35,389 nt of DNA from Gemmatimonadota bacterium (GTDB taxonomy: Bacteria; Gemmatimonadota; Gemmatimonadetes; Gemmatimonadales; Gemmatimonadaceae). Numbering within the stretch: the first letter of the stretch is position 1; each line of letters begins with the position of its first letter. The DNA lies in assembly GCA_028287285.1 (NCBI GenBank), contig JAQBPY010000003.1:1-35389 (forward strand). Direction: 5' to 3'. The notes under the pieces were generated by a model. That model saw only the letters and a program-made list of their open reading frames with translations, had not been told where the DNA came from and searched no databases. Of the stretch, positions 13,859 through 35,373 are shown piece by piece. The translations under genes were made by a program, and so were the position numbers.

Positions 13859-14935
13859 ATGGATCTCCCCGTCAATCCGCCCGTCCTCCCCATGCTCGCA
13901 AGTCGCGCGAGCGACCTTCCGCCGGGCGACGGCTGGATCTTCGAGCCAAAGTGGGACGGCTTTCGCACCCTCATCTTCCGCGACGGCGACGAGCTGTTGA
14001 TTCAAAGCCGCGACGGAAAGCCGCTCGACCGGTATTTTCCCGAGCTCGTCGAGATGCTGAAGGCGCAATTGCCCGCACGCTGCGTGCTCGACGGCGAAAT
14101 CGTGATCGCCAGGAACGGCACGCTCGATTTCGACGCACTCCAGTTGCGGCTGCATCCCGCCGCGTCACGCGTCACGCTGTTGTCGAACGAGATGCCCGCC
14201 TCCGTCGTCGTCTTCGACTGCCTGTCCGACGGAACGCAGAGCCTGTGCGACACGCCATTCAAGGCGCGGCGCGCGGCGCTGGAGAACATCCTCGCGAACG
14301 TTGACGGACGCCTGTATCTCACCCCGGCCACCCGCGACCGCGACGTCGCCGCCGATTGGTTTTCGCGCTTCGAGGGGGCGGGTCTGGACGGCGTGATCGC
14401 CAAGGCCGAAGACGCGCTGTACCTCCCGAACAAACGCGCCATGCTCAAGGTCAAGCACGAGCGTGACTGCGATTGCGTCGTCGCGGGCTTTCGCTGGCAC
14501 AAGAACAGCGATGATACCGCCGTGGGCTCATTGCTCCTTGGCCTGTACAATGACGCCGGCAGCCTCGAGCACGTGGGAGTCTGCGCGAGCTTCACGATGG
14601 CAAAGCGACGCGAGCTCCTCGAGCTGCTCGCGCCCTATCGGGACAACGCCGTCGAGACGCACCCCTGGAAGAGCTGGGCGAACGCACAATCGGCCGAGAC
14701 TCCGCAGCGAAAGCCCGGCGCGCAAAGCCGCTGGAGCGCGGGTAAGGATCCGTCATGGGAACCGGTACGGCCGGAGCTCGTCGCCCAGGTGGCGTACGAT
14801 CACATGCAGGGCGGCCGCTTTCGCCACACGGCGCAGTTTCGGCGCTGGAGGGCGGACAAGCCGCCGCGCGAGTGCACCTTCGCGCAGCTCGAGGTCGTCG
14901 CGCCGCAGGAGTTGCAGGAAATCTTCGGCGTCTAG
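13859..14935 (+). CDS. ATP-dependent DNA ligase (LigD ligase-domain / LigC type)
   Basis: This 358-residue protein contains the nucleotidyltransferase core: motif I EPKWDGFR with adenylated Lys31, motif III-like VVVFDCL, motif IV LDGVIAK, and motif V MLKVKHER. An OB-fold domain follows (about 200-350). The size matches stand-alone LigC or the ligase module of LigD. The reaction seals nicks with ATP and is used in Ku-dependent end joining or base-excision repair. The polymerase half of a LigD lies convergently at 16540-17868, so the two functions are encoded apart; no Ku gene is in the window. GAGG sits close before the ATG. Confidence 0.9.
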   Translation: MDLPVNPPVLPMLASRASDLPPGDGWIFEPKWDGFRTLIFRDGDELLIQSRDGKPLDRYFPELVEMLKAQLPARCVLDGEIVIARNGTLDFDALQLRLHPAASRVTLLSNEMPASVVVFDCLSDGTQSLCDTPFKARRAALENILANVDGRLYLTPATRDRDVAADWFSRFEGAGLDGVIAKAEDALYLPNKRAMLKVKHERDCDCVVAGFRWHKNSDDTAVGSLLLGLYNDAGSLEHVGVCASFTMAKRRELLELLAPYRDNAVETHPWKSWANAQSAETPQRKPGAQSRWSAGKDPSWEPVRPELVAQVAYDHMQGGRFRHTAQFRRWRADKPPRECTFAQLEVVAPQELQEIFGV

Positions 14936-16539: not shown

Positions 16540-17868
16540 CTACTGCGGCCGCGGCTTCTTTGTCCTCTCCCGGAATTCGCGTGTCGGGTCGTCGTCGGGG
16601 TCGGGCGTCTCCTGCGGCGGGCGCATCGCGTCGGCAACGTGTCGCAGGTTGACGCGAACGCGCGTCCACGTCGACGACCGGCCACGCATCGCATCGATCA
16701 ACACGTCGTCTACCGCGAGGTGCGATGCGGCCTCCGCATGTTTCGCCTTCCATCGCTCGAGTCCCGCGAGCGCGGCGTCCTTGCTTGGCGAGTTGGCGAT
16801 CGTGATGAGCGGCATCTTCGACGTCGCGCGTTTCGCAACGCCTTTGGCAACACCCTTGGCGCGCGACGGCGCGACACGCGCTGCCTCACCCTCGGCCTTC
16901 TGGAAATGCGGTGGCCACGGCGCGTCGCCGAGTCCGGCCGCATCGTCGCGATCGGCGAGCGCCAGCAACGCCTCGAGCGACCCGGCCGCCGCATCCATGT
17001 TGGCGTGTGGATCACCCATTGACGCAAACCGCGCCGGCACCGTGAGCACCGTGAAATCGGCCGGGTCGCAATCGCTCACCTCGGCCCATTCAATCGGCGT
17101 CGACACCCGCGCGTCCGGCAACGGGCGAATCGAATACGCCGAGCACGTCGTGCGGTCCTTCGCGTTCTGATTGTAGTCGAGGAACACGCCCTTCCGTTCC
17201 TCCTTCCACCATTTCGACGTCGCGAGACCCGGCGCACGCCGCTCCACTTCGCGCGAGAACGCGAGCGCCGCGCGCCGCACTTCGGAGAACGTCCAGCGCT
17301 GTTCGATGCGCACGTTGACGTGCATGCCGCGCGACCCGCTCGTCTTCGGCCAGCCACGAAGGCCCACTTCGCCGAGTAGCTCGTTTGCGGTCATGGCGAC
17401 GCGGCGCACGTCGTCCCACGCCACCCCCGGCCCCGGATCTAGGTCGATCCGCAACTCGTCCGGATGATCGAGGTCATTCGCGCGTACCGCGTGCGGATGC
17501 AGCTCGAGGCAGCCAAGGTTGACGATCCACGCGAGCCCTGCAGCATCGTCGACAACGAGCTCCTCCGCCATTCGTCCCGAGGGAAACGACAGCGTCGTGG
17601 TGCGGAGCCAGTCGGGCCGTTTCTCCGGAGCGCGCTTCTGGTAGAATGGCTCGCCTTCCGCGCCGTCCACGAATCGTTTGAGAACGATCGGTCGATCGCG
17701 AATTCCCGCCAGCGCCCCGTCGGCGACGGAGAGGTAATACCGCACGACGTCGAGCTTGGCGAGCCTGACGTCGCGCGAGAAGTACGGCTTCTCCGGGTTG
17801 GTGACACGCACCTCGCGTCCGTTCACCGTGAGGATTTCGGCTGCTGGTTGTTTGGCCATTGTTGTCAT
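16540..17868 (-). CDS. LigD-type polymerase/primase domain protein
   Basis: This 442-residue protein matches the archaeo-eukaryotic-primase-like polymerase domain of LigD: RIDLDPG with metal ligands Asp142 and Asp144, KTSGSRGMHV (175-184), and VFLDYNQN with third acidic residue Asp231. This module adds ribo- or deoxynucleotides during end joining. About 140 residues follow the domain, low in complexity and basic around AKGVAKGVAKRA, with no ligase or nuclease domain. The frame offers ATG 17868 or ATG 17859 (MAKQ); the first lies inside a dispersed GTTGTCATCC repeat, so the second may be the ancestral start. It converges with the monooxygenase gene, leaving only 3 bp between their stops. Confidence 0.9.
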   Translation of the reverse strand: MTTMAKQPAAEILTVNGREVRVTNPEKPYFSRDVRLAKLDVVRYYLSVADGALAGIRDRPIVLKRFVDGAEGEPFYQKRAPEKRPDWLRTTTLSFPSGRMAEELVVDDAAGLAWIVNLGCLELHPHAVRANDLDHPDELRIDLDPGPGVAWDDVRRVAMTANELLGEVGLRGWPKTSGSRGMHVNVRIEQRWTFSEVRRAALAFSREVERRAPGLATSKWWKEERKGVFLDYNQNAKDRTTCSAYSIRPLPDARVSTPIEWAEVSDCDPADFTVLTVPARFASMGDPHANMDAAAGSLEALLALADRDDAAGLGDAPWPPHFQKAEGEAARVAPSRAKGVAKGVAKRATSKMPLITIANSPSKDAALAGLERWKAKHAEAASHLAVDDVLIDAMRGRSSTWTRVRVNLRHVADAMRPPQETPDPDDDPTREFRERTKKPRPQ

Positions 17869-20590: not shown

Positions 20591-20759
20591 TGGGAGGCGT
20601 CGGCCTGATTCCGGACAGTTGTACGACGCTCGAAGGCAAGGGGGAAGAGTCGCGACCTGTCATTCAATGTGCCATGCGATGTATCAGACTTTCCGAGCCG
20701 CGCCGACCGAGCTCAATACTGCTTCAAGGCTCTTGCCCATACGTGGTTGCAGGTATATC

Positions 20760-20813
20760 ATGGCCAAAGTAAATAACATGGCCATGATAACCACCATGGC
20801 CACGATACCTCAA
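20760..20813 (+). repeat. Three 18-bp units, each starting ATGGCCA, at the antitoxin start
   Basis: ATGGCCA recurs at 20760, 20778 and 20796, exactly 18 bp apart. It encodes MAKVNN, MAMITT and MATIPQ in the same frame. The middle copy is part of the palindrome CATGGCCATG (20777-20786). Confidence 0.7.
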
Positions 20814-21986
20814 ATCATTGCCAACGCCATGGACGAGCCAGACGTCAGGTCCGATGCCGCTTCCCGCGGCAGCCGCGCAGAGGCCATCATCGCCGACCTC
20901 TTCGAGCACGCCGACTGGCGCGTACGCCGAGACGAACGTCCCGATTCCGCGGGAAGTAACCTCATCGTGCGCCGAGGCCGGACGACACTTCTCGTCCAGG
21001 TAAAGGCCGCAGCGGAAGGGCGCGCCGACCGGCTTATCCCCTTGTGGTCGCAAGCATACCTCGAAGCCCTGCGGGCGGCGGGAGACAAGCACCAGCCACT
21101 CACAGTGATTGCCGCGCCGAGAATTGCGCCACGCGCGGCGGAACAGGTGCTCAAGTTCGCGGCGGACGTTGCTCCGGAAGCCGCCATCGGAGTCATCGAC
21201 TTCGAGGGACTCCGTGAATTTCGTGGACCCCAGCTCGAGCACCTCAGCGCTGAGCATAGTCCCGCCCCCGCGCGAATCCGCTCGGCAGTCCAGGGTCAGT
21301 CGGATATCTTCTCTGACCTGAACCAATGGATGCTCAAGGTCCTGCTTGCTACTGAGCTTCCGGAGAAACTGCTCAGCGCACCAAGGATACGTTACCAGAA
21401 CGCGTCACAGCTCGCGCGCGCGGCCAACGTCTCGGTCATGAGTGCATTCCGGTTTGTGCAGCAGCTCGAGCGCGACGGATACCTCCATGAATCCAGTGGG
21501 TCGCTCGAGCTGGTCCGTCGCGGAGACCTGTTTCGGCGCTGGCGAGAGGCAGCGGCGCGACGAGTCATTGAAGTTCCCGTTCGCTTTCTGCTTCGCGGTG
21601 ATCCCCAGAAGGAGTTGGCGCGCACGCTACGCAGCGGGCGCGGATGTCTCGCCCTCTTTGCCGCCGCGAAAGCACTGGGATTCGGCTTTGTGCAGGGAGT
21701 GTTGCCACATGTGTATGTGCAGCGGCTTGATCCGGCGAGCATCGCGGAGTGGAAGAACATCGTTGTCGCCGGCCCCGGCGAACAGCCGGACATCCTGCTC
21801 CGACAGGCGCCGGCACCGCAATCAGTCTATCGCGGACTCGTGCGCGTCAACGACACGCCGGTGAGCGACATTCTCCAGGTCTGGCTCGATGTCTCCAACA
21901 GCCCATCACGCGGAGCCGAACAGGCGGATCTGATTCAACGCCGTATTCTCGACAAGCTCATCTCGGGCGCGCATGCCAATCGATGA
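20760..21986 (+). CDS. AbiEi-like antitoxin with wHTH and PD-(D/E)xK-like N-terminus
   Basis: From ATG 20760 the product is 408 residues. Residues about 35-110 (AEAIIADLFEHADWRVRRDE; then NLIVRRGRTTLLVQVKAA) look like a degenerate restriction-endonuclease fold with a QxK in place of ExK. A winged helix follows (about 210-262: NASQLARAANVSVMSAFRFV). The C-terminal domain ends with SDILQVWLDVSNSPSRGAEQ, as in AbiEi-type antitoxins. These proteins repress their own operon and counteract a linked nucleotidyltransferase. Three in-frame ATGs (20760, 20778, 20796) sit in an 18-bp repeat, so the start is ambiguous; TATATC lies just upstream. The toxin gene overlaps its 3' end by 14 bp. Confidence 0.65.
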   Translation: MAKVNNMAMITTMATIPQIIANAMDEPDVRSDAASRGSRAEAIIADLFEHADWRVRRDERPDSAGSNLIVRRGRTTLLVQVKAAAEGRADRLIPLWSQAYLEALRAAGDKHQPLTVIAAPRIAPRAAEQVLKFAADVAPEAAIGVIDFEGLREFRGPQLEHLSAEHSPAPARIRSAVQGQSDIFSDLNQWMLKVLLATELPEKLLSAPRIRYQNASQLARAANVSVMSAFRFVQQLERDGYLHESSGSLELVRRGDLFRRWREAAARRVIEVPVRFLLRGDPQKELARTLRSGRGCLALFAAAKALGFGFVQGVLPHVYVQRLDPASIAEWKNIVVAGPGEQPDILLRQAPAPQSVYRGLVRVNDTPVSDILQVWLDVSNSPSRGAEQADLIQRRILDKLISGAHANR

Positions 21987-22796
21987 CAGCGCCGCGCTCG
22001 CGCGATTGCTGGGAGCGTTGCGCCCATGGCTCGGCCATCTCGTCATCGTCGGTGGCTGGGCGCATCAGCTCCACCGACTGCACCCGCTTGCGACCGTGCC
22101 CGCCTATTCGCCAATTTTGACGAGGGACGCCGATGTCGCCCTCTCGCTGAACGCGCCATTGGAGGGCGATATCGGCGCCGCCCTACGGGCCGCGAGCTTC
22201 GAGGAACACCTATCAGGCGACCACACTCCTCCTATCGCCGAATACCGACTCGGCGGCGAGGAGCAGGGCTTCTACGCAGAATTCCTTGCGCCTCTGTAAG
22301 GAAGTGAATACAAGCGGCGCGGCAAGCAGGACGCCACGGGCATCAAAGCTGGAATCACCGTGCAGAAGCTTCGGCATCTCGATCTGCTGCTCATGCGGCC
22401 ATGGGGGGTCATGGTCGACGTGGGTACAGGTACGTCAAGAACGACGTCAGCCAAGGTGATGATTGCAAATCCTGTGAGCTTCATCGCGCAGAAGCTCCTG
22501 ATACAAACGGCTCGAAAGCCGGACAAACAATCCCAGGACATCCTTTACATCCATGACACTTTGGAATTATTCGCCAGCAACCTTGACTCCCTGAGGCCCT
22601 CTGGCTGGACCATCTCGTTCCGACGCTAACGTTGAAGGTTGTGAAGGACATCCAGCACCTCCACCGGGAGCAGTTCGGCAGCGTGACTGAGACAATTCGC
22701 GGAGCGGCACGAATTCCGGCGAACCGGACACTCATCCCGGAGAATATCCGGGGCGCCTGCGTCTATGGTCTGTCCCGAATCTTCGATGGGGAATGA
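21973..22796 (+). pseudogene. AbiEii-like nucleotidyltransferase toxin, broken by stop and frameshift
   Basis: The N-terminus has the polymerase-beta-type motif VIVGGWAHQL followed by LTRDADVAL. The frame hits TAA at 22297-22299, after FYAEFLAPL, and continues in the same frame with GSEYKRRGKQDA, KLRHLDLLLM, VSFIAQKLLI and DILYIHDTLELF. Near 22595-22600 similarity jumps to another frame (VPTLTLKVV, REQFGSVTETIRGAARIPA, IPENIRGACV) ending at TGA 22794-22796. The full product would be about 274 residues. Two independent lesions argue for a real pseudogene. The antitoxin upstream appears intact. Confidence 0.8.
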
Positions 22797-23171: not shown

Positions 23172-23561
23172 CTAGAACGTATCTTCGCCGGACAACCGGA
23201 ACTCGTGCCAATCGCACACACGAGCCAACTCCGACAAATAGAGACCAAACTCCTCAGACGTCAGCTCATCCAAGGGAATCCAGGTTTCGCCGATGAGCCG
23301 ACCACGTCCGTCAACCGTAAATCCGACGAGATCACTGAGGCGATTCCGCTCCCACGCATACCGATAGGATGAATCGTTCGTTGCCGCCGCAAGGACTGAC
23401 CGGCGGGCAATGATTGAGCTGGCCCGGAGCACTTGCTCGGTCTCCTCAAGGCGAAACCTCACTACTTGCACACTGCCACCGTCAAGCGTCACCGTGATGG
23501 AGTCTGACGAATCGACGCGGTAGCCCGCCCGCTTGGCGAGTTCCTTCCAATCACCGCGCAA
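23172..23561 (-). CDS. Small YbjN/CesT-chaperone-like protein, last gene of the helicase operon
   Basis: From TTG 23561, preceded by GAGGTGG, the product is 129 residues and overlaps the helicase stop by 11 bp. The pattern WERNRLSDLVGFTVDGRGRL, then GETWIPLDELTSEEFGLYL and CDWHEFRLSG, recalls the YbjN / type III chaperone-like fold (short alpha-beta-beta-alpha), a protein-binding module. The frame is open further upstream inside the helicase gene, but that part is a shadow. It may be an adaptor or assembly chaperone for the helicase (inference). Confidence 0.6.
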   Translation of the reverse strand: MRGDWKELAKRAGYRVDSSDSITVTLDGGSVQVVRFRLEETEQVLRASSIIARRSVLAAATNDSSYRYAWERNRLSDLVGFTVDGRGRLIGETWIPLDELTSEEFGLYLSELARVCDWHEFRLSGEDTF

Positions 23562-26500
23562 CGTCCACCTCTGCGTCGAGACCCGCGGATAGCACCGCCA
23601 TCGAGGCATCTCGCTCAAGAAGTACTTTCTCCATGCGATCTGCAGTGGTGACCACCGCCAGTATGAGCGCCTTTGCACGTTCCAGATCGTTCTCAACAGG
23701 TCCAAGAAGAACGTCGCCCTCGATCGCAACGTCGTACGACTCGTACCGCTCATTTCGCTCGAGTGCCAGCCGTGCATAGGGCACGCCCAGCATTGACACA
23801 GCGAGATCGTCATCCCACCTATCCATTGTCACACTGCCAATCGGACTGACACATCGAAGCACGGGACGTCCGCGCAAAGACCGAAGCAAAAGAGCAAAGG
23901 GCTGAACGCGCGATTCCAGGATCATTTCGCCCACGACCTGACATGTCTCCTTCCGGTGTACACCCCTCGCGCCCATCTGACTGGCGAGTATCTCGATCGC
24001 GTCCAGCCGCTCACGCATACGAGCGGCGTCCTCTGCACTCACCGCCAGTGGCCGCCTCGCACCCTTGACCATGTCAGGTATCACCCGGAATGCGCTTCGG
24101 AGGGGAGTTCGAATAGCCTGGATATCGATAACGTGACGAATCCCCTCTTCCATCACACTGACATCAGCGCGCTCCTTCCGCGGTGTCCCTAGTCCTTCGT
24201 GCATCATTACCATGAAGCGATTGAGGCGCTCGTAGACACGACGGAGCTGCAGAACTTCGACCGTATCATTCAGATGCGGATAATAGACCTGTAGCAAATC
24301 ATTATCAGAGCCCGTCGCCGTATCGCTTCCAAGCCGCCGTTCCGTCTGGGAACCCACCCGGTCAACGCGCCCAACCCGTTGTTCCAATTCCGAGGGCATC
24401 CAGGCGATTCCGTAGTGATAGACGCTGGAGCAAAAGGTGTGGAGATCCTCGCCCTCCTTGAGAAGGTCGGTAGTGACAAGAATGAGTGGATATCCCGGCA
24501 TCCTGAACTGCTTCACTACTTCGCCATTGACCTTCCCGGCCATCCCGGCCACAGGGCGCTGTGCGCGCAACGTCTTTCCGAGGATTGTTGGTACCCGGCT
24601 CAAGTCCGCGCCCAGAAGATCCGGAGCGTTCAGCTGCACGATGAGGTGGAAATTGGCGGCGTTCTCCGCCAATTCCTGGAACGAATTGAATTGTGCCGGC
24701 TCCTCGACCCGCTGTCGCTCGAGTTCGTCGAGGATCTCACCAGCCAGATTCGGAAGCTCCATTTCGGCGATTTCTCGCGCACCTTTCCTGATGCTCTCGA
24801 GTCGATTTGCGATCAGTATGAAAATATCGATGATCGGATGTCCCTTTCTGATCATCGTCGAAACGAATTCCCTCCTGAGCTCACATTCGTGCAGGATCGC
24901 CGCGAAATCACCAGTGGCGCGCTGCGGCCAGAGATGTTTCAGTAGCACTGGTCGCAGACGCAGCTCTGAAAAGAGGGTGCGCTCCGCGAGCCACTGTTCC
25001 GCGCCCTTCTCGACCCGGTCAATCCGCTCATCCCGAATGGGAATCACGAAGACATCTCGAAGAATCGTGCGAGCATCCGCTCCGACCCGATCCTCGAGCG
25101 CACCGAGCAGGTAGAGCGCACCGGCCTGAAACGCACGCATCCGAACGCGGCTGCGCACTACCGCGCTCTTCGCTCCGAGATATCGTGCTGCCTGGCGCTC
25201 TACACGCGTGACGACGTCGGCCTCCGAAATCCCAAGCACGCGCGCCATCTCGGCGATCACTCGATCGGTCGAGACTCCGAGGACAGCCGTGACGTAGTTG
25301 TCCTCCAGGAGCGTGGAGTACGCGCTACTCGCCTTCTCGAGGTCGAGAGCAATGCTCGCCCCACTTCTTACACCGTCAGGACCCTTGCCACGAAAGAACC
25401 ATGCAAAGAAGCTGTCAATGCTGGATTGCTCTCCGTCCTCGGCAACAGTATTCCTGAATTCGTCACGCGCGCGAATACCATGACGCGCTTCGGCGCGTTC
25501 AGCCAGATAGGTCTTGATCTGCGTTTCTATCTGTGACTGGAGCGTGGCACCACGCAACGCCGCCCGCAGGCGAGCAAACAGCAGCTCATCGTACTTCTCC
25601 TCCAGCTTACGCTGCAGCTCGTCAACTGAGGCGACGCGTCGAACAAAAACCAGCGCCTTTCGACCGGTTACAAATGACTGTGCCAACTCGGCGACAATCG
25701 CATCCATCTTCGGATGCGGCATCTCTGTACCCAGTGTCTTCAGGTGGTCTTTCGCCAACGTGTTGATGGCGTCGATATCCGCACCATCTCGGCGCGACTC
25801 CCGCCCTGACGCGATCTCCTCAGGCGTTCGATGAAAGGCGGCGTCTTCAGCAGTATCCTCTCCTTCCTCTTCAGGCACATCGCTCGGGCGCAACTTTGTG
25901 CTCTTCACCGTTTCGAGGAAGCTCTCGAATGACGCGAGAAGTCCGACCTGAAACGAATGATTGTGCACGCCTGACCCGAGCAGCTCCGCAACCTTCTTCT
26001 GGACAAGTGCGACCGCGAGCCGTTGCCTGTCGGTCGCAGGACGCAGCGGTTCGTCATGCGTCGCGATCCCGCCGCCGCGCCACTCGCGCCGATACTCACT
26101 CTTCGTCAGTCGCCTATCACCCGACGAAAGCTCTGCCGTGCGGCGAATCAGGAGTCGCCGAACCACCGCCCGGTGCTGCTCGTGATCGAGACTGGCGTCG
26201 CGCAACTCATCCCACCCGGCGCTGAAGCCAAAGAGATCGAGTTGATTCCAGAGCTGGCGCATCTCGTACTCGATCGGAGTCGCACTTAGGAACAACACCT
26301 TCTTGATGCGTCGCCGGTACCCCTTGAACTGCGCCGTATCCTCGGCGATGTGCCGACCGCCCAGGGTGCAACCAAGCACCATGTTCCTGACGGACGACGA
26401 GCGTTCCTTCCAGCCGGCTTTCAGGTTGTGTGCTTCATCGACGATCAGAAGGTCGATGTCAGGCAGGGCACAATTCACCGCGCGGGCAAAGTTGCGTTTG

Positions 26501-27075
26501 TAACCCTCCTTCCGCGCATCGAGTAAGTCCGATTGTAACCATGGAACGGTGCGCAGCAGGCTCTTGCGGCGCTTGTCGAGCGTGGCGTCAGCCCCGACAA
26601 TCGGAAGGCTGAAGCTCGTAAGTCTTACGAAGAAGTCCCGATCCGGATCGTTTGATGCCTCTGTCGCGAGATCGACAAGCGAGTTGACCTTCACGAGCGC
26701 ACGAGCCGGATGCCCGCCAAGCCCCTTCACGCGCAGGTCCTCCACGCGCACGATCCGGCTGACGAAGTTTCTCCATTCCTTCATCCACTTGTTCTGGATG
26801 TTCTCCTTCGGCGCCAGGACCATGACACGCAATTCCGGCCGGAAATGCCGCAGGAGTGCCATTGTGCCAAGGGCAACATAGGTCTTGCCCATGCCCACCT
26901 CGTCTGCGAGGTAGGCCACATTCTGGTCCTGCAGCATGTTGTGAAGCGCCACCGCGCCGGACAACTGTTCCTCCGCCACTGCGGTACTTACGACACCGCC
27001 AGCAGCGCCGGCGGCAAAGTCCAATAGCTCCCGAGCCGTGGCGACGTCGATTCGCTCAGGCAACGGACGCCTCAT
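23551..27075 (-). CDS. SNF2-type DEAH helicase/translocase
   Basis: This 1174-residue superfamily 2 protein has Walker A LADEVGMGKT (56-65), motif Ia VLAPKEN, motif II IVDEAHN (211-217), motif III LSATP (263-267), and in the C-terminal lobe LVTTDLLKEGEDLH and QRVGRVDRVG (near 897). A long insertion (about 370-830), rich in charged helices, separates the lobes. Class and size resemble the large SNF2-like proteins of defence loci such as DISARM DrmD, but other DISARM genes are absent. It would move on DNA using ATP. It overlaps the PLD gene by 20 bp and the small YbjN-like gene by 11 bp, so the operon is tightly coupled. A role in recognising or unwinding foreign DNA is inferred. Confidence 0.85.
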   Translation of the reverse strand: MRRPLPERIDVATARELLDFAAGAAGGVVSTAVAEEQLSGAVALHNMLQDQNVAYLADEVGMGKTYVALGTMALLRHFRPELRVMVLAPKENIQNKWMKEWRNFVSRIVRVEDLRVKGLGGHPARALVKVNSLVDLATEASNDPDRDFFVRLTSFSLPIVGADATLDKRRKSLLRTVPWLQSDLLDARKEGYKRNFARAVNCALPDIDLLIVDEAHNLKAGWKERSSSVRNMVLGCTLGGRHIAEDTAQFKGYRRRIKKVLFLSATPIEYEMRQLWNQLDLFGFSAGWDELRDASLDHEQHRAVVRRLLIRRTAELSSGDRRLTKSEYRREWRGGGIATHDEPLRPATDRQRLAVALVQKKVAELLGSGVHNHSFQVGLLASFESFLETVKSTKLRPSDVPEEEGEDTAEDAAFHRTPEEIASGRESRRDGADIDAINTLAKDHLKTLGTEMPHPKMDAIVAELAQSFVTGRKALVFVRRVASVDELQRKLEEKYDELLFARLRAALRGATLQSQIETQIKTYLAERAEARHGIRARDEFRNTVAEDGEQSSIDSFFAWFFRGKGPDGVRSGASIALDLEKASSAYSTLLEDNYVTAVLGVSTDRVIAEMARVLGISEADVVTRVERQAARYLGAKSAVVRSRVRMRAFQAGALYLLGALEDRVGADARTILRDVFVIPIRDERIDRVEKGAEQWLAERTLFSELRLRPVLLKHLWPQRATGDFAAILHECELRREFVSTMIRKGHPIIDIFILIANRLESIRKGAREIAEMELPNLAGEILDELERQRVEEPAQFNSFQELAENAANFHLIVQLNAPDLLGADLSRVPTILGKTLRAQRPVAGMAGKVNGEVVKQFRMPGYPLILVTTDLLKEGEDLHTFCSSVYHYGIAWMPSELEQRVGRVDRVGSQTERRLGSDTATGSDNDLLQVYYPHLNDTVEVLQLRRVYERLNRFMVMMHEGLGTPRKERADVSVMEEGIRHVIDIQAIRTPLRSAFRVIPDMVKGARRPLAVSAEDAARMRERLDAIEILASQMGARGVHRKETCQVVGEMILESRVQPFALLLRSLRGRPVLRCVSPIGSVTMDRWDDDLAVSMLGVPYARLALERNERYESYDVAIEGDVLLGPVENDLERAKALILAVVTTADRMEKVLLERDASMAVLSAGLDAEVDVAR

Positions 27076-29068
27076 CCAAACGCAGGTTCTTCAGGAAGTG
27101 CCCCTCGAACCACGTGATGAACGCCTGCCCGTCCGAACCCAGCTCGAGTTTCGCGCTCAGGATTTCTGCGTGCTTCGTGCGGTCGATCAGCCTGTTGAAC
27201 TCCGAGCGATGCGCCTCGAAAAATGGCAGCTTCACGTTCCGCAACTCGCGGGCAAGCTGTCGCGTGCTCAGGAGCAGCAGGTAGGACTGAAGCACATCCG
27301 TTTCGCCTTCGGCTTCAATGATTCGGTCAACGAGGACAGGCAATGAGTCGTGTCGCTTGCCGAACAGGAGGTAATCTGCCTGTCGTTCGTGGCCTGCCTC
27401 AATGCTGGAAAGCACCTGCTTTCGCAGCATCTCGAAACCGTGGAAGATGCCGGCGAGGGTCGTGAAGAAGTTGTCCAGACGCTCCAGCCGGCTCGTACGC
27501 TCGGCACCCTCCACAAACCCCTCCGGGATATTCCCACCACGATCCAGGAGAAAGGCCGCCTTCTGCTCGGCAGTCAGCCGAGACCAGTATTCGAGCACGT
27601 CGGCGATCGTCCAGGATACTACCAGGCTCGGCTTACGGTTCATCCCGTATTCCTGTACCAAGATCGATCCTCGGCTACCATCATCATGGACGACCTGAAG
27701 TAGTGTCGTGCTGATGAGGATCTTCTCCAGCGCAATCGCGCGCTCACGATCAAGTGAAGTCCATTCCCCGACTCCGAGATTCTCGAGGGTAAAGATCTCC
27801 GAACCCGCAGACTCCACGCGCAAGCGTGGTGACACGTCCTTGCCGCCCCACCGAACCTCGAGCAGCTGCGTCGTCCAGTCGTAGCTCACCTGAAGCGGGA
27901 CGAACGCCTCCATGTTCACGTCCTCGTCTCCGAGATCGACCTTGAAGGCCCTTGGTCGCTTGGTATCCGTGGTCAGCCACCAATCCACGGCACCGCTGCT
28001 TTCGCGCTCGATGAGGAAGGATGCCTCGACGTTTCGACCGGCTCCGTGAGCCGGTACGGAGAGGTTGTGCGAGCCGACGAGGATTGCCTCGTATCGCTTG
28101 GACCGCTTCAGAAAACGATAGACCTTCGCGTGCACGCCTCGCGACAGCGCATTCGTCTCCTTTCCAAGCTTGAGCAGGTCCGGGGGCAAGCGCCCCCAGG
28201 AACAACCAGGTAGCGATCGCACTTCATCGTACAATGCCCCTTCGACGTTGGCGGTGCCATCATCAGCCGCAGGCAGGAAGACGCGAGTCTCGCGTATCCC
28301 AAAGGCGTCGATCAAGGCGCTCAACGCACTCGGTCGCTTTTCGTCGAGGAAGGGAGAGATCACTTCGAGCGAGGCGCCAGTCAGCTCGTCGCCGCGAGTA
28401 TTGCGAAGGAACTCCAGCAATGGCCGAGTGCCCGCGATCAACTGGGGGCGCAAACGACCGTCGGTCGTCCGGTGCTCGGTCTGCTGCGTTTCCCTCCTGA
28501 GCCAGACGTCGATAGCATCGAGCGGCTCATGGTCCTGATCCCGACCGCCCAGCTGCCGCACCTCCTTGAGGAAGCGACGAAGATCATCCCGGAAGCTGCA
28601 ACGATCTCCGGCCGTTATGAACTCGAAGTGCGCAGCTTCAAGGCTGGACCACCATCCGCTCTTCGTCAGGTTGGCGGAAAGAACCCCGCAGACCAGGGCT
28701 GGTTTGAGCTTGCTGCCATCGTCGGTCGGCACCGTGAGCAAGAGCACGAGCTTGGGATGAAAAACGCCGGATTTCGCTCGCACCGGGACGTAGCGAATAT
28801 CCAGCTTCTTGCCGGCGTCAGGCCGGAGTCCGACCTGGTCGTAATAGACCGCGATCGGCCCGATGGCCCCCCGCAGGGCTTCCTCGAGCTGCCACAGCCG
28901 AAGCTTCGGTTCCTGGAGGAGCGCATCGCCCGCGAGCAGCGTGACGATCTCCTCCTCAAAGAACTCCGGCTCAAGCGTGTAGGTCATGAAGACGGCAGCA
29001 GTCACGCACCTGCCGCTCAGGCTCTCTCGCACGTGCTGCGACAGCACTGCGTTTGGGATGCCTGTCAT
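27056..29068 (-). CDS. PLD-superfamily protein with two TDP1-like H-K-N motifs
   Basis: ATG 29068 shares one base with the upstream stop (TGATG), giving 670 residues. Two half-sites are visible. The first is VFHPKLVLLL (His104, Lys106) with GVLSANLTKSGWW (Asn133). The second is GVHAKVYRFL (His313, Lys315) with ILVGSHNLS (Asn335) and NVEASFLIE (Glu348). The Asn in place of the Asp of classical HKD, and the SANLTKSGWW string, resemble tyrosyl-DNA phosphodiesterase 1 rather than bacterial phospholipase D. The family hydrolyses phosphodiesters through a covalent His intermediate. The C-terminal 300 residues are unrecognised. With the helicase next to it, a DNA-end or protein-DNA-adduct processing nuclease is the likely effector (inference). 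Confidence 0.8.
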   Translation of the reverse strand: MTGIPNAVLSQHVRESLSGRCVTAAVFMTYTLEPEFFEEEIVTLLAGDALLQEPKLRLWQLEEALRGAIGPIAVYYDQVGLRPDAGKKLDIRYVPVRAKSGVFHPKLVLLLTVPTDDGSKLKPALVCGVLSANLTKSGWWSSLEAAHFEFITAGDRCSFRDDLRRFLKEVRQLGGRDQDHEPLDAIDVWLRRETQQTEHRTTDGRLRPQLIAGTRPLLEFLRNTRGDELTGASLEVISPFLDEKRPSALSALIDAFGIRETRVFLPAADDGTANVEGALYDEVRSLPGCSWGRLPPDLLKLGKETNALSRGVHAKVYRFLKRSKRYEAILVGSHNLSVPAHGAGRNVEASFLIERESSGAVDWWLTTDTKRPRAFKVDLGDEDVNMEAFVPLQVSYDWTTQLLEVRWGGKDVSPRLRVESAGSEIFTLENLGVGEWTSLDRERAIALEKILISTTLLQVVHDDGSRGSILVQEYGMNRKPSLVVSWTIADVLEYWSRLTAEQKAAFLLDRGGNIPEGFVEGAERTSRLERLDNFFTTLAGIFHGFEMLRKQVLSSIEAGHERQADYLLFGKRHDSLPVLVDRIIEAEGETDVLQSYLLLLSTRQLARELRNVKLPFFEAHRSEFNRLIDRTKHAEILSAKLELGSDGQAFITWFEGHFLKNLRLDEASVA

Positions 29069-30378
29069 CAAGCGCGACCCCGAAGCTGGTCGCTCACCAA
29101 CTTGAGCGGATTCAGATAGAAGGTGCTGCGCCACTGTTCCGCCAAGTCGGCCGGCGCGAGCAGGGCAGGGTGCGAGTCGCCGCGATAGCGCACGTCCAGC
29201 TTTTCACCGGAACGCTGGATCCACGGTTGTGACCCGTTCCGGGAGCTCATCACGAACTGATTGTGCGCCAGGGTAAGATCGATTGCCTCTTCCCACTTGC
29301 CGGAGTTCAGGGTGGCGGCGAGAGCAACAAGCCGCTCGCCAGCAGCTTGGTTGCCGAGAATTCGGCACAGGTCGGGTGCCATATCCGCGATCTCTGCGCG
29401 GCGCACGTGGCGCAGTCCCTTTCCCCACTCCTTTCGGAGTTCCTTGACGACATCGAGCACCTTGGCCTTGTCACGGTGCTGCAGGAACCCAAACAGGTTG
29501 GCCGAGGCGACGAGCAACCCCTCCAGATCCCTGATGCGTACCAACTGATCGCGCAGCGGCCCGTCCGTCGGAGCGTTGGCGGCTTTGATCAGTCGCGTCA
29601 GTGATCTGTGGTCGAAATACTCGTCCTTGGGCAGAACGGCCTCCATCAGTTCCGCAAAGCGCGGCTGCCATCCCTGCTTTCGGGCCTTTTCGCCGCCAAG
29701 AATGAGATGTGTATGGTAGAACTGCTGTTCTGCCTTTCGAAATGACGGTGACAGGATCTTGCCCAGCGCCTCGAACAACCCGGCATGACGGCCTTGGGGC
29801 TCGACCTCGCTGGCCGCCTTTGAGAGGATCGTCTCGATTGTGGCGCCCTCATCGCGGCTCCCTGCGCGCAGCATGGGGAGATAGTCGCGGTCCAGAAGCT
29901 CGCGGCTGGCTGCCGTCAGTGTGAGGTCTTTTGGCACCACCAGTCCGGAGTCTATGGCTGGGGTGATGAATAGCCCCCAAATGCCGTAGGTAGTCTGGTT
30001 ACTGAGGATCTGAAGCTCCTGGGCCGCCCCACTTCTGATGCGCCGCCCCTCCCCATCACTTAGGCGCTTTTTGATCTGGGTAATGCCACGGGTGTTCGCG
30101 TCCTCGTTCCGAATGAATCGAGCGAAACCTGCCAACTGCTCGAATTTCAAGAACGCAGCAAGTCGTACTGATTCCCGGTCCGGGAGGCCGGCAGACACAC
30201 GTTCAGCGAAATGAAGTCCGAGGAGGAGCGTCGTGAAGCCGCGGGCGGAATTGGAGGCCCCGGTCAGGTTCTCTACGACCTTGCGACCGAAGTCGCCCCA
30301 AATCGGCACGAGTCCAAGCGGATCTCGCGACCCACGAATGTTTAAGCGCTCCGTATCGGCCGCGGTAAGGAAGAACAT
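29068..30378 (-). CDS. Conserved-looking helical protein of unknown family, first gene of the helicase operon
   Basis: This 436-residue protein begins MFFLTAADTERLN and then has RGSRDPLGLVPIWGDFGRK. No catalytic motif, membrane segment or signal peptide is seen; it is mostly alpha-helical and charged. The early segment RDPLGLVPIWG followed by helices loosely recalls winged-helix start proteins of other defence loci (for example DUF6361), but this is only an impression. Its ATG follows GAGGTG by 3 bases, and its stop shares a base with the PLD gene start. As first gene of the leftward operon it may be the recognition or regulatory subunit (inference). Confidence 0.6.
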   Translation of the reverse strand: MFFLTAADTERLNIRGSRDPLGLVPIWGDFGRKVVENLTGASNSARGFTTLLLGLHFAERVSAGLPDRESVRLAAFLKFEQLAGFARFIRNEDANTRGITQIKKRLSDGEGRRIRSGAAQELQILSNQTTYGIWGLFITPAIDSGLVVPKDLTLTAASRELLDRDYLPMLRAGSRDEGATIETILSKAASEVEPQGRHAGLFEALGKILSPSFRKAEQQFYHTHLILGGEKARKQGWQPRFAELMEAVLPKDEYFDHRSLTRLIKAANAPTDGPLRDQLVRIRDLEGLLVASANLFGFLQHRDKAKVLDVVKELRKEWGKGLRHVRRAEIADMAPDLCRILGNQAAGERLVALAATLNSGKWEEAIDLTLAHNQFVMSSRNGSQPWIQRSGEKLDVRYRGDSHPALLAPADLAEQWRSTFYLNPLKLVSDQLRGRA

Positions 30379-30410
30379 TTACACCTCATTGGGGCCGTTC
30401 GGGAGCACAC

Positions 30411-30438
30411 ATTTAACCTCGTGGACGAAGAACGGCAA
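30411..30438 (-). promoter_or_regulatory. Possible promoter of the leftward helicase operon
   Basis: Read on the minus strand, TTGCCG (30438-30433), a 16-bp spacer and TTAAAT (30416-30411) resemble sigma70 hexamers. They sit about 33 bp upstream of ATG 30378. It is a moderate match only. Confidence 0.35.
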
Positions 30439-30485
30439 GCACCGGATGTGGTTGAACCGCACCAACGAGAAGCACCGATCCGTAA

Positions 30486-30502
30486 ACAAGCGCAGCGCTT
30501 GT
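30486..30502. promoter_or_regulatory. Perfect 17-bp palindrome centred between divergent operons, candidate operator
   Basis: ACAAGCGC-A-GCGCTTGT is perfectly symmetric. Its centre (30494) is 116 bp from the leftward start at 30378 and 114 bp from the rightward start at 30608. The position and symmetry fit a shared operator for a dimeric repressor; no such regulator gene is obvious nearby. Confidence 0.5.
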
Positions 30503-30607
30503 CTTGGCTCGGAAGACAGGTACGTTTGACCGCTCCGAATCCCTTGCCAGATCGAGATTCAGCGACCGGCAACCAAAGTAGCGCTCGAGACACTAACAGG
30601 AGAGGCC

Positions 30608-31261
30608 GTGCAAATCCCGTTTGGTACAAACAGCTTCGCGAGCAATCCTGACCCCCGCTGCCCATGCGTACTAGTTCTCGATGTTTCGGGATCAATGAGT
30701 GGCGCGCCGATACAACAGCTCAACGACGGCCTTCAGTTCTTCCGCGAAGAGCTTCTTGCTGATCCCCAGGCTGCGAGGAGGGCGGAAGTCGCAATGGTCA
30801 CCTTTGGTCCGGTGTCCGTGCTCCAAGATTTTGTGGGGGCTGAGTCGTACCAGCCGCCGCATCTAACCACTCAAGGAGATACGCCGATGGGAGCCGCAAT
30901 CCTGCAGGCTATTCAGCTTGTTCAGGATCGAAAGCGTGTGTATCAGGAAAACGGAATTATGTACTTTCGACCGTGGATTTTCCTGATCACTGACGGCGCT
31001 CCAACGGATGCATGGAAAAACGCTGCCATGGCCGTGCGTGAGGGAGAGGCCGCGAGCAAGTTCGCGTTCTTCGCTGTGGGTGTGAAGGGTGCCGATATGG
31101 ATGTCCTTGCACAGATCGCCCCTCGCGGACCCATGCAGCTGGAGGGTCTCCGGTTTCGCGAGATGTTTGCCTGGCTGTCTGCATCGATGAAACGCGTGTC
31201 GGCATCGGCGCCGGGAGACAAGGTAGATCTTCCCGTACCGGTAGGTTGGGCCAGCATTTGA
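30608..31261 (+). CDS. terY: TerY-type von Willebrand A domain protein
   Basis: From GTG 30608 with AGGAGAGG upstream the product is 217 residues, almost entirely one vWA domain. The MIDAS metal site is intact: [10 protein letters not shown] (Asp25, Ser27, Ser29), the Thr in GDTPMGAAI, and the Asp in [10 protein letters not shown]. The length and the [17 protein letters not shown] start match TerY of tellurium-resistance/TerY-P loci. It is cytoplasmic with no membrane segment. It is followed after 6 bp by a PP2C phosphatase gene and then a kinase gene, the TerY-phosphorylation triad. The vWA protein probably is a metal-dependent scaffold or phosphorylation target. The symbol follows the family; tellurite resistance itself is not implied. 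Confidence 0.85.
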
Positions 31262-31267
31262 GGCGGG

Positions 31268-32188
31268 ATGCACGCGGAGCCAACCGCACTCACGCCTGAC
31301 ATGACAGTCGAGTCAGTAGCCGTAGACGAGTGGCGACACGCGGAGGCTTCTATCGCCGGGCTTGCCCATGAGAAGTCGGGAACGCCTTGTCAGGATGCGC
31401 ATAGCGTTCAGTTTCTTCCTTCACGTTCTGGCACGATTCTCATCGTCGCTGTTGCTGACGGCGCGGGATCAGCGAAGCACAGCGCACAGGGCAGCAGAAT
31501 AGCGTGTGACGCCGCCGTCGAGGTCGTACGCCGACACATTGAACGCGAAGGCGATATTGCCAACGTGCAGGAAGAGTCCCTGCATCTCTGGTTTGACTCG
31601 TGTGCAGAGCGTGTGGCCGACCGCGCCGCGGTCCTGGAATGCGAAAATCGGGACCTTGCCTGCACGCTTCTTCTGGCAGTCATCTCGCCTCAAAGAGCCG
31701 TGTTTGCCCAACTTGGCGATGGCGCGATAGTCATTGAGCGCAATCATTCGCTCGATGCTGTATCGTGGCCGCAAAATGGAGAGTTCATCAACACCACACT
31801 GTTCATAACAAGTCCGTCGGATCGGGCCGAACTACAAACACACATCCTTGAGGAAGCAATCGGTGAGATAGCCATGTTTACCGATGGACTGGAGTTCCTG
31901 GCCTTGGAGTTCGCCGAACGACGCGCACACACTCCCTTCTTTGCGCCGCTCCTCGCGAGCACGCGCATGCTACTCCCCGTCGATACCGACAGCGCCAATG
32001 CGGCGCTGGGCGATTTCCTCGCATCGCCGCCAGTTCGTGAACGCACAGACGATGACCTTACTCTGGTGCTGGCATCTCGCCGCCCACCGCACTTTGCGCT
32101 TTCACCGACACAAGTACAGGTGGTTGTCGAGCCATCCTCGCCTGAACCCTCTGATACGAGTGGAACGACGGGTGGCGACGAGCCGTGA
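31268..32188 (+). CDS. PP2C-family Ser/Thr phosphatase of the TerY-P triad
   Basis: This 306-residue protein has PP2C metal-ligand motifs in order: KSGTPCQDAH, ILIVAVADGAGSAKHS, AQLGDGAIV, IAMFTDGLE, and RTDDDLTLVLA near the end. This is the PP2C_2 branch used beside TerY. The last 35 residues are a Pro/Ser/Thr-rich tail. It would remove phosphates placed by the downstream kinase, giving a reversible switch. GGCGGG precedes ATG 31268. The stop overlaps the kinase start by GTGA. Confidence 0.88.
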   Translation: MHAEPTALTPDMTVESVAVDEWRHAEASIAGLAHEKSGTPCQDAHSVQFLPSRSGTILIVAVADGAGSAKHSAQGSRIACDAAVEVVRRHIEREGDIANVQEESLHLWFDSCAERVADRAAVLECENRDLACTLLLAVISPQRAVFAQLGDGAIVIERNHSLDAVSWPQNGEFINTTLFITSPSDRAELQTHILEEAIGEIAMFTDGLEFLALEFAERRAHTPFFAPLLASTRMLLPVDTDSANAALGDFLASPPVRERTDDDLTLVLASRRPPHFALSPTQVQVVVEPSSPEPSDTSGTTGGDEP

Positions 32189-34140
32189 CCGCACAGCACA
32201 CTGACTCGCTTGGCAGGCATGTGGTACTGGGTACAATGCTTGGCCGGGGAGGGGAAGCCACTGTTTATGAAGTGCCTGCACGCTCAGGAGAAGCCGCGAA
32301 GATCTACGCGCATCCATCAGAGGAAAAGGCGGCAAAGCTTCGCGCAATGATAGCTGGCGCAACGCCCGATCTCGTCAAGGTGTGCGCATGGCCGACTGAG
32401 CTGCTACAGCAGGGGACGGGATCGTCGCCAGTCGGCTTCTTGATGCGCAAGCTGGTACAATCCCATCCGCTGGACAGCCTCATCGTACCGGCCCAACGCA
32501 ACCGTGACTTTCCGGGCGTTGATTGGCGCTTCATCGTGCACACAGCACGAAACCTGGCAGATGCAGTTGGAGAGGTCCATCGACACGGACTCATCGTCGG
32601 TGACCTCAATGAGAACAATGTGCGCGTGACAGGCACCGGCGAGGTGCGATTCATTGACTGCGATTCTTTTCAGGTACGAACGGCCACTCGCACTTTCCGG
32701 TGTCCGGTCGCGACACTGCTCTACTGGCCGCCCGAACTGCAGGGAGAGAGTGCAGATGCCGTTGATCGGACCACCAATCACGACGCCTTCGCGCTGGCAG
32801 TTCTGCTCTTTCGCCTACTGTTTCTCGGACGCCATCCATTCGCTGGGCGCTATACCGGAAATGGCGAACAGCCGGACATTCCCGAGCTGATTCGGACACA
32901 TCGCTTCGCGTTCGGTGCCAAGAGCGCCGAGCGACAGGTGCTCCCCCCGCCTGACGCGCTACGGCTTCATCAGCTTCCGACGTCTGTGGGCACGCTCTTC
33001 GAAAGGGCTTTTGCGCCCAACGCCGCAATGGACGGTTCGCGTCCTATGCCCACAGACTGGGTAGGCGCGTTGGATGGCTTGGCGAAGGCGCTCAAAGTCT
33101 GCCCGGCATCGACGGCACACTGGTATCCGTCCGCCTCGTCGGCATGCCCTTGGTGCGAAATCGAGCGAAGCGTCGGTTTCGCGCTTTTCATCGGAATGCA
33201 AGATGCAGCCGGGCCAGCAGGCCAGGCCGCATCGTCCCGGCAGGTCGACGTTGACGCCCTTTGGCGAGCGATCACGGCCGTCCCCATTCCGGCACCCGCG
33301 ATTCAGCTCTTGCCGGAGCCCCTTGAACTACGTGCCCTCGAAGCCGCAGTCGAGCCACCCGTTATCGCTGAACGACTCACCGCACTCGGCAAACTGCTCG
33401 GGATGGTCTCCATCGGATGCATCATTTTTTCCGGTACAAATGCACTACTCGCGCAATGGGGGGCCGGGGGCCTGATCCTCGCGACTCTCCTGTACGTCAT
33501 CGGCAAATCCTCGGGCGGGTATTCTCAGTGGCGACGTTCTCCGGCAAGACAGGCCGGCGCAGACTTGCGTCGATCCTGGAAGACCGCACAACAGGAAATC
33601 GAGGCAGCAAGCAACGAATTCAGCAAGACCTTCGAGCAGTTGAGAGGGCACCTCGCCGAGCACAAGCAACTCCGGGCGAACTACGAAGCCGAATACGAAC
33701 AGCTCAAGACGAAATCGCGCACCGCGCAGACTCACGAGCACTTGCAACGCTATCCGGTTCGTGCGTCGCACCTGTCAGGTATTGGCCCGACGGTGATCGC
33801 CGCCCTGGAATCGTATGGCATCTATACAGCTGACGACGTCGCCTACGATCGCGTGCTGTACGTGAAGGGAATTGGCCCAAAGCGAGCAAGCGCACTCGTC
33901 TCATGGAAGCAACGGTGCGAGTCCCAATTCAAGCCTGACAGTCGCCGAACCATCGATGCTGGGGCCTTGGCTGCTCTCAAGCAAAAATACGTTACTCGAC
34001 ACGAATTTCTGGCCGGTACATTGGCGTCTGGTCCAAGAATGCTCACAAACGCCCGAGAGCGAATCGAACAGACCGCCCGTGATCGACGCGCCGGCCTCAG
34101 CGGCCTCGCCGAGCGCGCCGAGGCTCTGCTGAAGCGATGA
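32185..34140 (+). CDS. Protein kinase-like protein with zinc ribbon, two membrane helices, coiled coil and HhH
   Basis: From GTG 32185 (GTGA overlap) the product is 651 residues. The kinase domain spans about 12-300: Gly-rich loop LGRGGEATVY (19-28), Lys39 in AAKIY, catalytic loop LIVGDLNENNV (Asp140, Asn144/145) and metal motif FIDCDSFQV (Asp158/160 in place of DFG). A zinc-ribbon-like site follows (Cys306, His312, Cys321, Cys324). Two hydrophobic segments lie near 403-423 and 427-440. A coiled coil spans about 458-515. Two helix-hairpin-helix motifs, SGIGPTVIAAL (531-541) and VKGIGPKRASAL (560-571), suggest nucleic-acid binding. This is the kinase of the TerY-P triad; a membrane-tied kinase with a DNA-binding tail is unusual. 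Confidence 0.85.
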   Translation: MTAQHTDSLGRHVVLGTMLGRGGEATVYEVPARSGEAAKIYAHPSEEKAAKLRAMIAGATPDLVKVCAWPTELLQQGTGSSPVGFLMRKLVQSHPLDSLIVPAQRNRDFPGVDWRFIVHTARNLADAVGEVHRHGLIVGDLNENNVRVTGTGEVRFIDCDSFQVRTATRTFRCPVATLLYWPPELQGESADAVDRTTNHDAFALAVLLFRLLFLGRHPFAGRYTGNGEQPDIPELIRTHRFAFGAKSAERQVLPPPDALRLHQLPTSVGTLFERAFAPNAAMDGSRPMPTDWVGALDGLAKALKVCPASTAHWYPSASSACPWCEIERSVGFALFIGMQDAAGPAGQAASSRQVDVDALWRAITAVPIPAPAIQLLPEPLELRALEAAVEPPVIAERLTALGKLLGMVSIGCIIFSGTNALLAQWGAGGLILATLLYVIGKSSGGYSQWRRSPARQAGADLRRSWKTAQQEIEAASNEFSKTFEQLRGHLAEHKQLRANYEAEYEQLKTKSRTAQTHEHLQRYPVRASHLSGIGPTVIAALESYGIYTADDVAYDRVLYVKGIGPKRASALVSWKQRCESQFKPDSRRTIDAGALAALKQKYVTRHEFLAGTLASGPRMLTNARERIEQTARDRRAGLSGLAERAEALLKR

Positions 34141-34247: not shown

Positions 34248-34550
34248 ATGCCGAGACGTGCCCGTCGCCATCCCGCCGCCGCCTTTAAAGCCAAGGTCGC
34301 CCTGGCCGCCGTGCGGAACGAAGGAACCCTCGCCGAACTCGCGAAGCGGTTCGATGTCCATCCCGCGCAGATTACCGCGTGGAAAGACCAGTTGCTGAGT
34401 GGGGCTGCCACCGTGTTCGGGGGCGGTGCACCCACCGAACCGGTCGTCGATGTCAAAACGCTCCACGCGAAGATTGGCGAGCTGGCGCTCGAGAATGATT
34501 TGTTCGAACACGCGCTCAGCACGGCCGGCTCGCTGAGCGCCAAACGATGA
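34248..34550 (+). CDS. IS3-family transposase OrfA
   Basis: This 100-residue protein has the HTH_Tnp_1 helix-turn-helix ([33 protein letters not shown]) and a leucine-zipper-like end. AAGGAG precedes ATG 34248. It overlaps OrfB by 4 bp (ATGA), so OrfB may be expressed by restart instead of the usual -1 slip. Confidence 0.85.
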
Positions 34551-35373
34551 TCGATCGCACCCATGCGCTCTCCCTCACCCGGCAAGCGGAGGCGCTCGGC
34601 ATCAGCCGCGGCATGGTCTATTACGTCCCGTGCGCCATGAGCGAGTACAACCTGGATCTGATGCGGACGATCGATGCACGGCATCTCGACTTTCCGTTTG
34701 CGGGTGCGCGTATGCTCCGTCGACTCCTGCGAGGCGAGTTTCCCGACGTGGGCCGTCGGCGTATCGGGAGTTGATGCTCCACATGGGCATCACCGCGATC
34801 TGCCCACAGCCGGGTACCAGTCGCCGGCATCGCGCGCATCCCGTGTACCCGTATCTCTTGCGGCATCGGACGATCACTCGCCCCAACGCGGTGTGGGCGA
34901 TGGACATCACGTACATCCCGATGGCGCACGGGTTTGTGTATCTCGCGGCCGTGCTTGACTGGGCGACCCGACGCGTCCTGAGCTGGCGCGTCTCGATTAC
35001 GCTCGACAGTGCGTTCTGCATCGCGGCCGTGGAGGACGCCCTGGGCACGTACGGGTGTCCGGAGATCTTCAACACCGATCAAGGCGCGCAGTTCACGAGT
35101 ACGGCGTTCACCGGACTCCTTCTGGATTACGGGATTCGGATCAGCATGGATGGCAAAGGGTGCTGGCGCGACACTGTCTTCGTCGAACGACTCTGGCGCT
35201 CACGCAAGTACGAAGAGGTGTACCTGCACGCCTACGACTCGGTCTCCGCCGCCATCGCCGGGATCGGCCGCTATCTCACGCTGTACAACACCCGTCGGCC
35301 CCATTCGAGTCTCGACGACCGCACCCCAGACGAAGCCTATTTCACCCCACGACCGCTCGCTGCAGCGGCCTGA
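34547..35373 (+). pseudogene. IS3-family transposase OrfB, frameshifted
   Basis: The first frame reads RGMVYYVPCAMSEYN and AGARMLRRLLRGEF, then GRRRIGS and a TGA at 34772-34774. The integrase core continues in another frame: RELMLHMGIT, AMDITYIPMAHGF (first Asp), FNTDQGAQFTS (second Asp), VFVERLWRSRKYEEVY (Glu) and YNTRRPHSSLDDRTPDEAYF. Restoring one G in CGGGAG near 34768 rejoins the frames. All three DDE residues remain, so a single lesion or a sequencing error inactivates it. Confidence 0.8.

Follow-up and report, generated by a model that had tools for sequence, protein, structure and literature searches.

A 35,389-nucleotide stretch of DNA from a Gemmatimonadota bacterium (contig JAQBPY010000003.1; here called the window) carries two divergent operons, one with a helicase and a putative nuclease and the other with a kinase and a phosphatase. 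A first-pass annotation of this DNA read the seven genes as a single phosphorylation-gated defence system. The locus thus poses the question of whether the two operons work as one machine or are separate sets of genes that lie next to each other. Our analysis indicates that they are very probably two independent modules side by side: a four-gene form of PDC-M27 on the left and a TerY-P triad switch on the right.

Layout of the locus

The open reading frames and their coordinates bear out the seven-gene layout of two tight, divergent operons:

23172..23561, minus strand: YbjN-like small protein, fourth gene of the left operon (129 aa, inferred TTG start at 23561; Pfam YbjN E = 1.3e-5, above the cut-off)
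23551..27075, minus strand: SNF2-type SF2 helicase, PDC-M27C-like (1174 aa; PADLOC PDC-M27C E = 7.4e-72; Pfam ResIII 2.6e-10, Helicase_C 2e-9, SNF2 3.8e-7)
27056..29068, minus strand: predicted TDP1-like PLD-superfamily nuclease, PDC-M27B-like (670 aa; Pfam RE_NgoFVII 0.0019 and Tyr-DNA_phospho 0.023, both below the cut-off)
29068..30378, minus strand: protein A, PDC-M27A-like, mostly helical (436 aa; without a Pfam family; PDC-M27A E = 8.7e-17)
30608..31261, plus strand: vWA protein (TerY/YegL-like), first gene of the triad (Pfam VWA 3.7e-9)
31268..32188, plus strand: PP2C phosphatase, PphC-like (Pfam PP2C_2 3.7e-50)
32185..34140, plus strand: Ser/Thr kinase, YegI-like, with a Cys/His cluster, one hydrophobic stretch and a C-terminal helix-hairpin-helix (Pfam Pkinase 8.9e-7 and HHH_5 0.0011, both below the cut-off)

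Within both operons, neighboring genes overlap or lie 6 bases apart, and the operons themselves are separated by 229 bp (30378-30608). The YbjN-like frame stops at 23172 and its inferred TTG start overlaps the end of the helicase gene; the ATG of the PLD gene has one base in common with the stop of A, with an alternative GTG start at 29134. Promoter-like and terminator-like sites were no more frequent than in shuffled sequences. The earlier family calls (PLD, SNF2, YbjN-like, vWA, PP2C and kinase) also held up in Pfam, with the PLD, Pkinase and HHH_5 matches below their cut-offs.

The right operon and the TerY-P triad

Judged by alignment, the right operon is a TerY-P triad of vWA, PP2C and kinase and a homolog of E. 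coli yegL-pphC-yegI. The E. coli record has yegL, pphC and yegI in the order of the window triad, with identities of 60.6% (vWA to YegL), 33.9% (PP2C to PphC) and 30.2% (kinase to YegI). The vWA protein aligns with YegL with the MIDAS-type D-x-S-x-S, T and D residues present, and the operon combines a MIDAS vWA, a PP2C phosphatase and a Ser/Thr kinase, as TerY-P is defined; in the definition given in PMC11090510, the kinase is fused to a C-terminal zinc ribbon. In the window kinase, residues C306, H312, C321 and C324, which follow the kinase core and may bind zinc, are invariant in all seven aligned kinases, as are the glycines of the helix-hairpin-helix; a hydrophobic stretch lies near residue 404. 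None of the PADLOC models matches the vWA or PP2C protein, and the kinase matches kinase models that belong to other systems (PD-T4-6, MkoA). A PDB sequence search with the kinase gave weak matches only, and phages gave no match to it.

TerY-P is described in PMC11090510 as a hypothesized signaling switch found with several restriction systems, and as a frequent companion, not a core part, of some CoCoNuTs. The same source describes a stand-alone antiphage form with an OB-fold tail, and cloned TerY-P protected P. aeruginosa PAO1 from phage (PMC10889362). In E. coli, YegI is dephosphorylated by PphC (PMC13232886).

One possible but doubtful alternative keeps the two operons independent, and to that extent overlaps our preferred explanation, while taking the triad for a non-defence YegL-PphC-YegI signaling set that sits beside a defence operon. 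The triad resembles the E. coli set, whose place in locus L061 is between mdtAB and yegD-alkA, and this fits such a role. The patchy distribution of the triad (3 of 395 sampled genomes in the window's phylum have a full-length kinase), the presence of the kinase on plasmids (55 records) and the protection that TerY-P forms give against phages (PMC11090510, PMC10889362) all argue against it.

The left operon and PDC-M27

A comparison with PADLOC models, which the first-pass annotation had proposed as a check, placed the left operon in a known group. PADLOC holds models for PDC-M27A, PDC-M27B and PDC-M27C, and the window matches all three with protein A (E = 8.7e-17), the PLD protein (about 1e-9; 9.3e-10) and the helicase (7.4e-72), respectively. 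By these profile matches, the left operon is a member of PDC-M27, a candidate defence system already in PADLOC. The relatives agree: PDC-M27A was matched by 20/20 A proteins (the window and 19 loci) and PDC-M27B by 20/20 PLD proteins, while the PDC-M27C comparison covers the window helicase only. ZacB was also matched by 20/20 PLD proteins, and the window PLD scores better with ZacB (E about 1.3e-20) than with PDC-M27B. A literature search by name for PDC-M27 and Zac found no paper.

We scanned one genome per species (84,980 species) for protein A with a single peptide pattern, by which A proteins that lack the pattern are missed, and obtained 22 loci. Twenty of these have the genes for A, PLD and helicase on the same strand and in this order; the other two, one at a contig end (L044) and one with a fragment of A (L047), hold no complete unit. 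Two plasmids, together with two genomes of the phylum to which the Myxococcales locus L037 belongs, added further A-PLD-helicase loci, for 24 outside the window, which are not 24 independent events because L046/L048, L051/L053 and L054/L055 are close kin. A-PLD-helicase is a conserved unit in a fixed gene order. Its host genomes, by title, include Gemmatimonadota, Parcubacteria, Myxococcales, Pedobacter, Lachnospiraceae, Treponema and Pseudomonas among others. The count includes L082, whose PLD gene (10235-12552) is split over two overlapping frames, which may reflect a frameshift or an error of assembly.

Within the window's own family, protein A was found in the window's genome only, among 179 genomes, and viral contigs held no relative of it. 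Plasmids gave no match to the window's own A or PLD; three plasmid records with a PLD of this family were detected with the PLD of L009 as the query. A helicase match was present in 32 plasmid records, and the two of them that were opened were both A-PLD-helicase loci.

The closest relatives of the left operon are 31 to 39% identical to it. To compare residues, we aligned 20 members of each of the three families, from the window and 19 loci, leaving out the incomplete L044 and L047 and also L048, which is near-identical to L046. The HxK, SxN, HxK and GSxN motifs of the PLD protein are invariant in 20/20, as are Walker A (GxGKT), the D-E of the DEAH box and the motif VI residues of the helicase. 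PDB sequence searches gave nothing for the PLD protein, the helicase or A. At the level of fold, the label "TDP1-like" that the PLD protein had been given finds support: the best Foldseek match of its predicted structure is yeast Tdp1 (1q32, E = 1.1e-11; rmsd 6.8), with modest TM-scores of 0.32 by query and 0.48 by target. Further matches are phosphatidylserine synthase, SauUSI (7clg, E = 3.6e-4) and BfiI (2.8e-3). Protein A has a mostly helical predicted model (pLDDT 88.5) with no PDB match in Foldseek at E ≤ 0.001; a second look at the model found weak resemblance to DNA-binding folds only.

A YbjN-like fourth gene in a small branch

YbjN-like homologs lie directly 3' of the helicase gene in L034 (Gemmatimonadota, E = 6e-11) and L035 (Parcubacteria, E = 2.9e-14), the two closest relatives of the left operon. 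The three YbjN-like proteins align and have a C-terminal motif in common, and those of L034 and L035 on their own do not reach Pfam YbjN. The other 22 complete A-PLD-helicase loci outside the window gave no significant YbjN-like match, with chance-level matches in L049 (E = 0.55) and L081 (E = 0.77). Recurrence of the gene in L034 and L035 places the window in a small PDC-M27 branch whose operon has four genes. From these alignments, the four-gene variant is a new but modest addition to PDC-M27. A literature search for YbjN with helicase or phage defence returned no YbjN paper among the matches listed.

Genomic neighborhood

Among ten genes chosen from beside A-PLD-helicase operons (nine upstream, one downstream), three fell into defence families of other kinds, namely an Argonaute-associated helical REase, a Type I methyltransferase and a Type I specificity subunit; the remaining seven had no match. 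On its left side, the window holds an AbiE-like pair and a caspase-type cluster. These genes, together with the defence-family neighbors elsewhere, fit a defence island.

The cluster at 5584-13536 (plus strand) encodes an alpha/beta hydrolase, a caspase fused to an inactive STAND, an AAA ATPase and a 1390-aa protein that matches no Pfam family, and looks like a caspase-type conflict system. The AbiE-like pair, an HTH protein followed by an NTP_transf_8 nucleotidyltransferase spread over two frames (20619-22629, plus strand), lies about 0.5 kb left of the YbjN-like gene, with one half interrupted. Between these two sets, an ATP-dependent DNA ligase (13859-14935, plus strand) and a LigD-type primase-polymerase (16540-17868, minus strand) are separate genes that flank an FAD hydroxylase. 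Frames of an IS3-type transposase (34248-35373, plus strand) lie directly 3' of the kinase gene.

The two operons occur apart in the other loci examined

If the seven genes formed one system, as first proposed, their families would be expected to occur together elsewhere. In the loci examined they do not. Among the 24 A-PLD-helicase loci outside the window, 0/24 have a vWA, PP2C or kinase gene in the flanks examined, and among 21 triad loci outside the window, 0/21 have a match above 40 bits to A, PLD or helicase in the flanks examined. The flanks compared extend no further than about 10 kb on either side, or 12 kb for plasmids, and those of L003, L035, L039, L055, L058 and L061 are shorter. 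In a joint test of 46 loci, 22 carried the triad and 23 carried A-PLD-helicase, with one, the window, carrying both. In the flanks examined beside the six other aligned kinases, the left operon was likewise not found.

The 21 triad loci comprise six plasmids, one E. coli record, four loci from the window's phylum and ten more (five from the order of genome G411 and five from the window's phylum); in 8 of the 21 (L058, L060 and L072-L077) the kinase profile matched over partial length, which marks these as looser relatives. In L058, the vWA gene would lie beyond the contig end and the locus was scored as a triad on kinase and PP2C; a 16-bit helicase match in L056 was taken as generic. Left out of the triad count were L021-L030, whose kinase matches are weak (E 1e-10 to 1e-14) and mostly lie next to a PP2C-like frame, and L063, with a partial kinase (G414). 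L002, L033 and L059 coincide with L034 and were not counted separately, and L001, L011-L020, L031, L032, L062, L064-L067 and L078-L080, short versions of the window or of other counted loci, were left out.

Counts by genome and by plasmid give the same picture. A kinase match at E ≤ 1e-20 is present in two of the 22 genomes that carry A, and in neither does it adjoin A. G411 has the kinase on a 63,760-base contig and A on a 311,796-base contig, and in G414 the search found a partial kinase only, which does not lie beside A. The kinase occurs in 55 plasmid records and a PLD of this family in 3, with no record in common; seven of the 55 kinase records (the six plasmids and the E. coli record) were opened. 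Across 395 sampled genomes of the window's phylum, A occurs in 2 and the kinase profile matches 20 at E ≤ 1e-10, 3 of them at full length; the window's genome is the only one with both. Literature searches that combined TerY, SNF2, PLD and related words returned no entry whose title or opening lines of abstract describe such a layout.

We therefore consider it improbable that the locus is one composite system, in which the triad would sense infection and its kinase and phosphatase would gate an A-PLD-helicase-YbjN nuclease by phosphorylation. The divergent adjacency of the operons across 229 bp would allow shared control, and both halves keep the conserved residues of their families. Against this stand the counts of 0/24 and 0/21, by which the composite is rejected as a conserved system. 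The helix-hairpin-helix tail, which the first-pass annotation suggested could bring the kinase to the DNA of the helicase, is present in all 7 aligned kinases whatever their neighbors, and so is no evidence of a link to the neighboring helicase. Of the proposed phosphorylation-gated defence system, the gene identities and the defence flavor of each half stand, and the single conserved system does not.

Since the relatives are only 31 to 39% identical, a partnership specific to this locus could be missed, and the distance of the relatives, the kinship among loci and the one-pattern scan together leave room for a private arrangement in this lineage. We give a slim chance to such an arrangement, in which a four-gene PDC-M27 restriction-like nuclease would have acquired a TerY-P kinase/phosphatase switch as its controller, and the YbjN-like protein would act as a phospho-regulated adaptor. 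That the juxtaposition is an assembly artefact is highly improbable. In its favor, the assembly has 441 contigs at 84% completeness and an IS3-type transposase lies at the window's right edge; the similar GC of both operons (0.57-0.61, below the 0.66-0.67 of the ligase, FAD-hydroxylase and primase genes further left) is weak evidence to the contrary.

A proposed model of two independent modules

The relatives examined carry the two sets separately, which points to neighboring defence genes rather than to one new combined machine, and the preferred reading remains that of two independent modules. On the left, the divergent four-gene form of PDC-M27 would act as an ATP-driven restriction-like complex. 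Protein A may recognize DNA or load on it. SNF2 motors translocate on or remodel DNA, and the motor of this operon would do the same. The TDP1/SauUSI-like PLD protein, with its conserved active-site residues, would cut DNA, and the YbjN-like protein may serve as a small adaptor or chaperone. Because the window's operon has no methyltransferase, self DNA would presumably be spared by recognition of a modification or of a DNA state.

On the right, the kinase, the opposing phosphatase and a metal-binding vWA partner would form a stress or phage-response switch of their own, a kinase/phosphatase relation that the E. coli pair PphC and YegI supports. The related triads described in PMC11090510 and PMC10889362 function without a partner nuclease, so the window triad may likewise function alone. 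The two modules would share nothing but the divergent intergenic region. The defence flavor that the first reading saw in both halves is upheld, on the left by the PDC-M27 models and on the right by published stand-alone TerY-P defence (PMC11090510, PMC10889362). Also counting against this explanation, the tested stand-alone TerY-P described in PMC11090510 has an OB-fold tail whereas the window kinase has a helix-hairpin-helix, and the same source describes TerY-P triads built into some other systems.

Taken together, the census argues against filing the seven genes as a new composite; the two halves are better treated as separable cassettes. PDC-M27 gains an anatomy, namely a conserved gene order, a TDP1-like PLD active site, a confident model of A without a clear PDB match and a YbjN-like branch, and would offer clear parts to test if it is confirmed as antiphage. 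The value of the finding lies in this correction of the composite reading and in the four-gene branch.

Comparison with known systems

The closest known system is PDC-M27 itself, whose models match the window's A, PLD and helicase and whose matching relatives keep the gene order. The window differs in the YbjN-like fourth gene that follows the helicase in its branch and in a helicase longer than most: the three members of the branch have 1157 to 1201 aa, and the genome relatives have 861 to 1007 aa in 14/20 loci and 1134 to 1386 aa in four others. The helicases are unusually long in the PDC-M27-like operons of L054 (1386 aa) and L055 (1371 aa), whose A proteins align in BLAST over only about 11 to 12% of the length of the window's A.

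SauUSI and other helicase-PLD restriction enzymes resemble the left operon in PLD fold (7clg, E = 3.6e-4), and SauUSI-type enzymes have an SF2 motor, as the window operon does. Unlike them, the window has separate polypeptides, a TDP1-like two-motif PLD and a protein A without a Pfam family. DISARM (DrmC, DrmD) and BREX-related Type-2 systems also pair an SNF2 helicase with a PLD/HKD nuclease. Separate genes for DrmA/DrmB, a methyltransferase, DUF499 and DUF3780 were absent among the ten neighboring proteins scanned, and the DrmD model NF038317 gives the window helicase 70 bits against an NCBIfam cut-off of 610. With these partners missing and DrmD far below its cut-off, we rejected membership in DISARM or the BREX-related systems.

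The right operon is most like E. coli yegL-pphC-yegI, with the same three families in the same order. E. coli YegI has two strong hydrophobic segments near residues 391-433, whereas the window kinase has the one near 404, and the helix-hairpin-helix tail of the window kinase is unlike the tails reported in PMC11090510, which are of the zinc-ribbon and OB-fold types.
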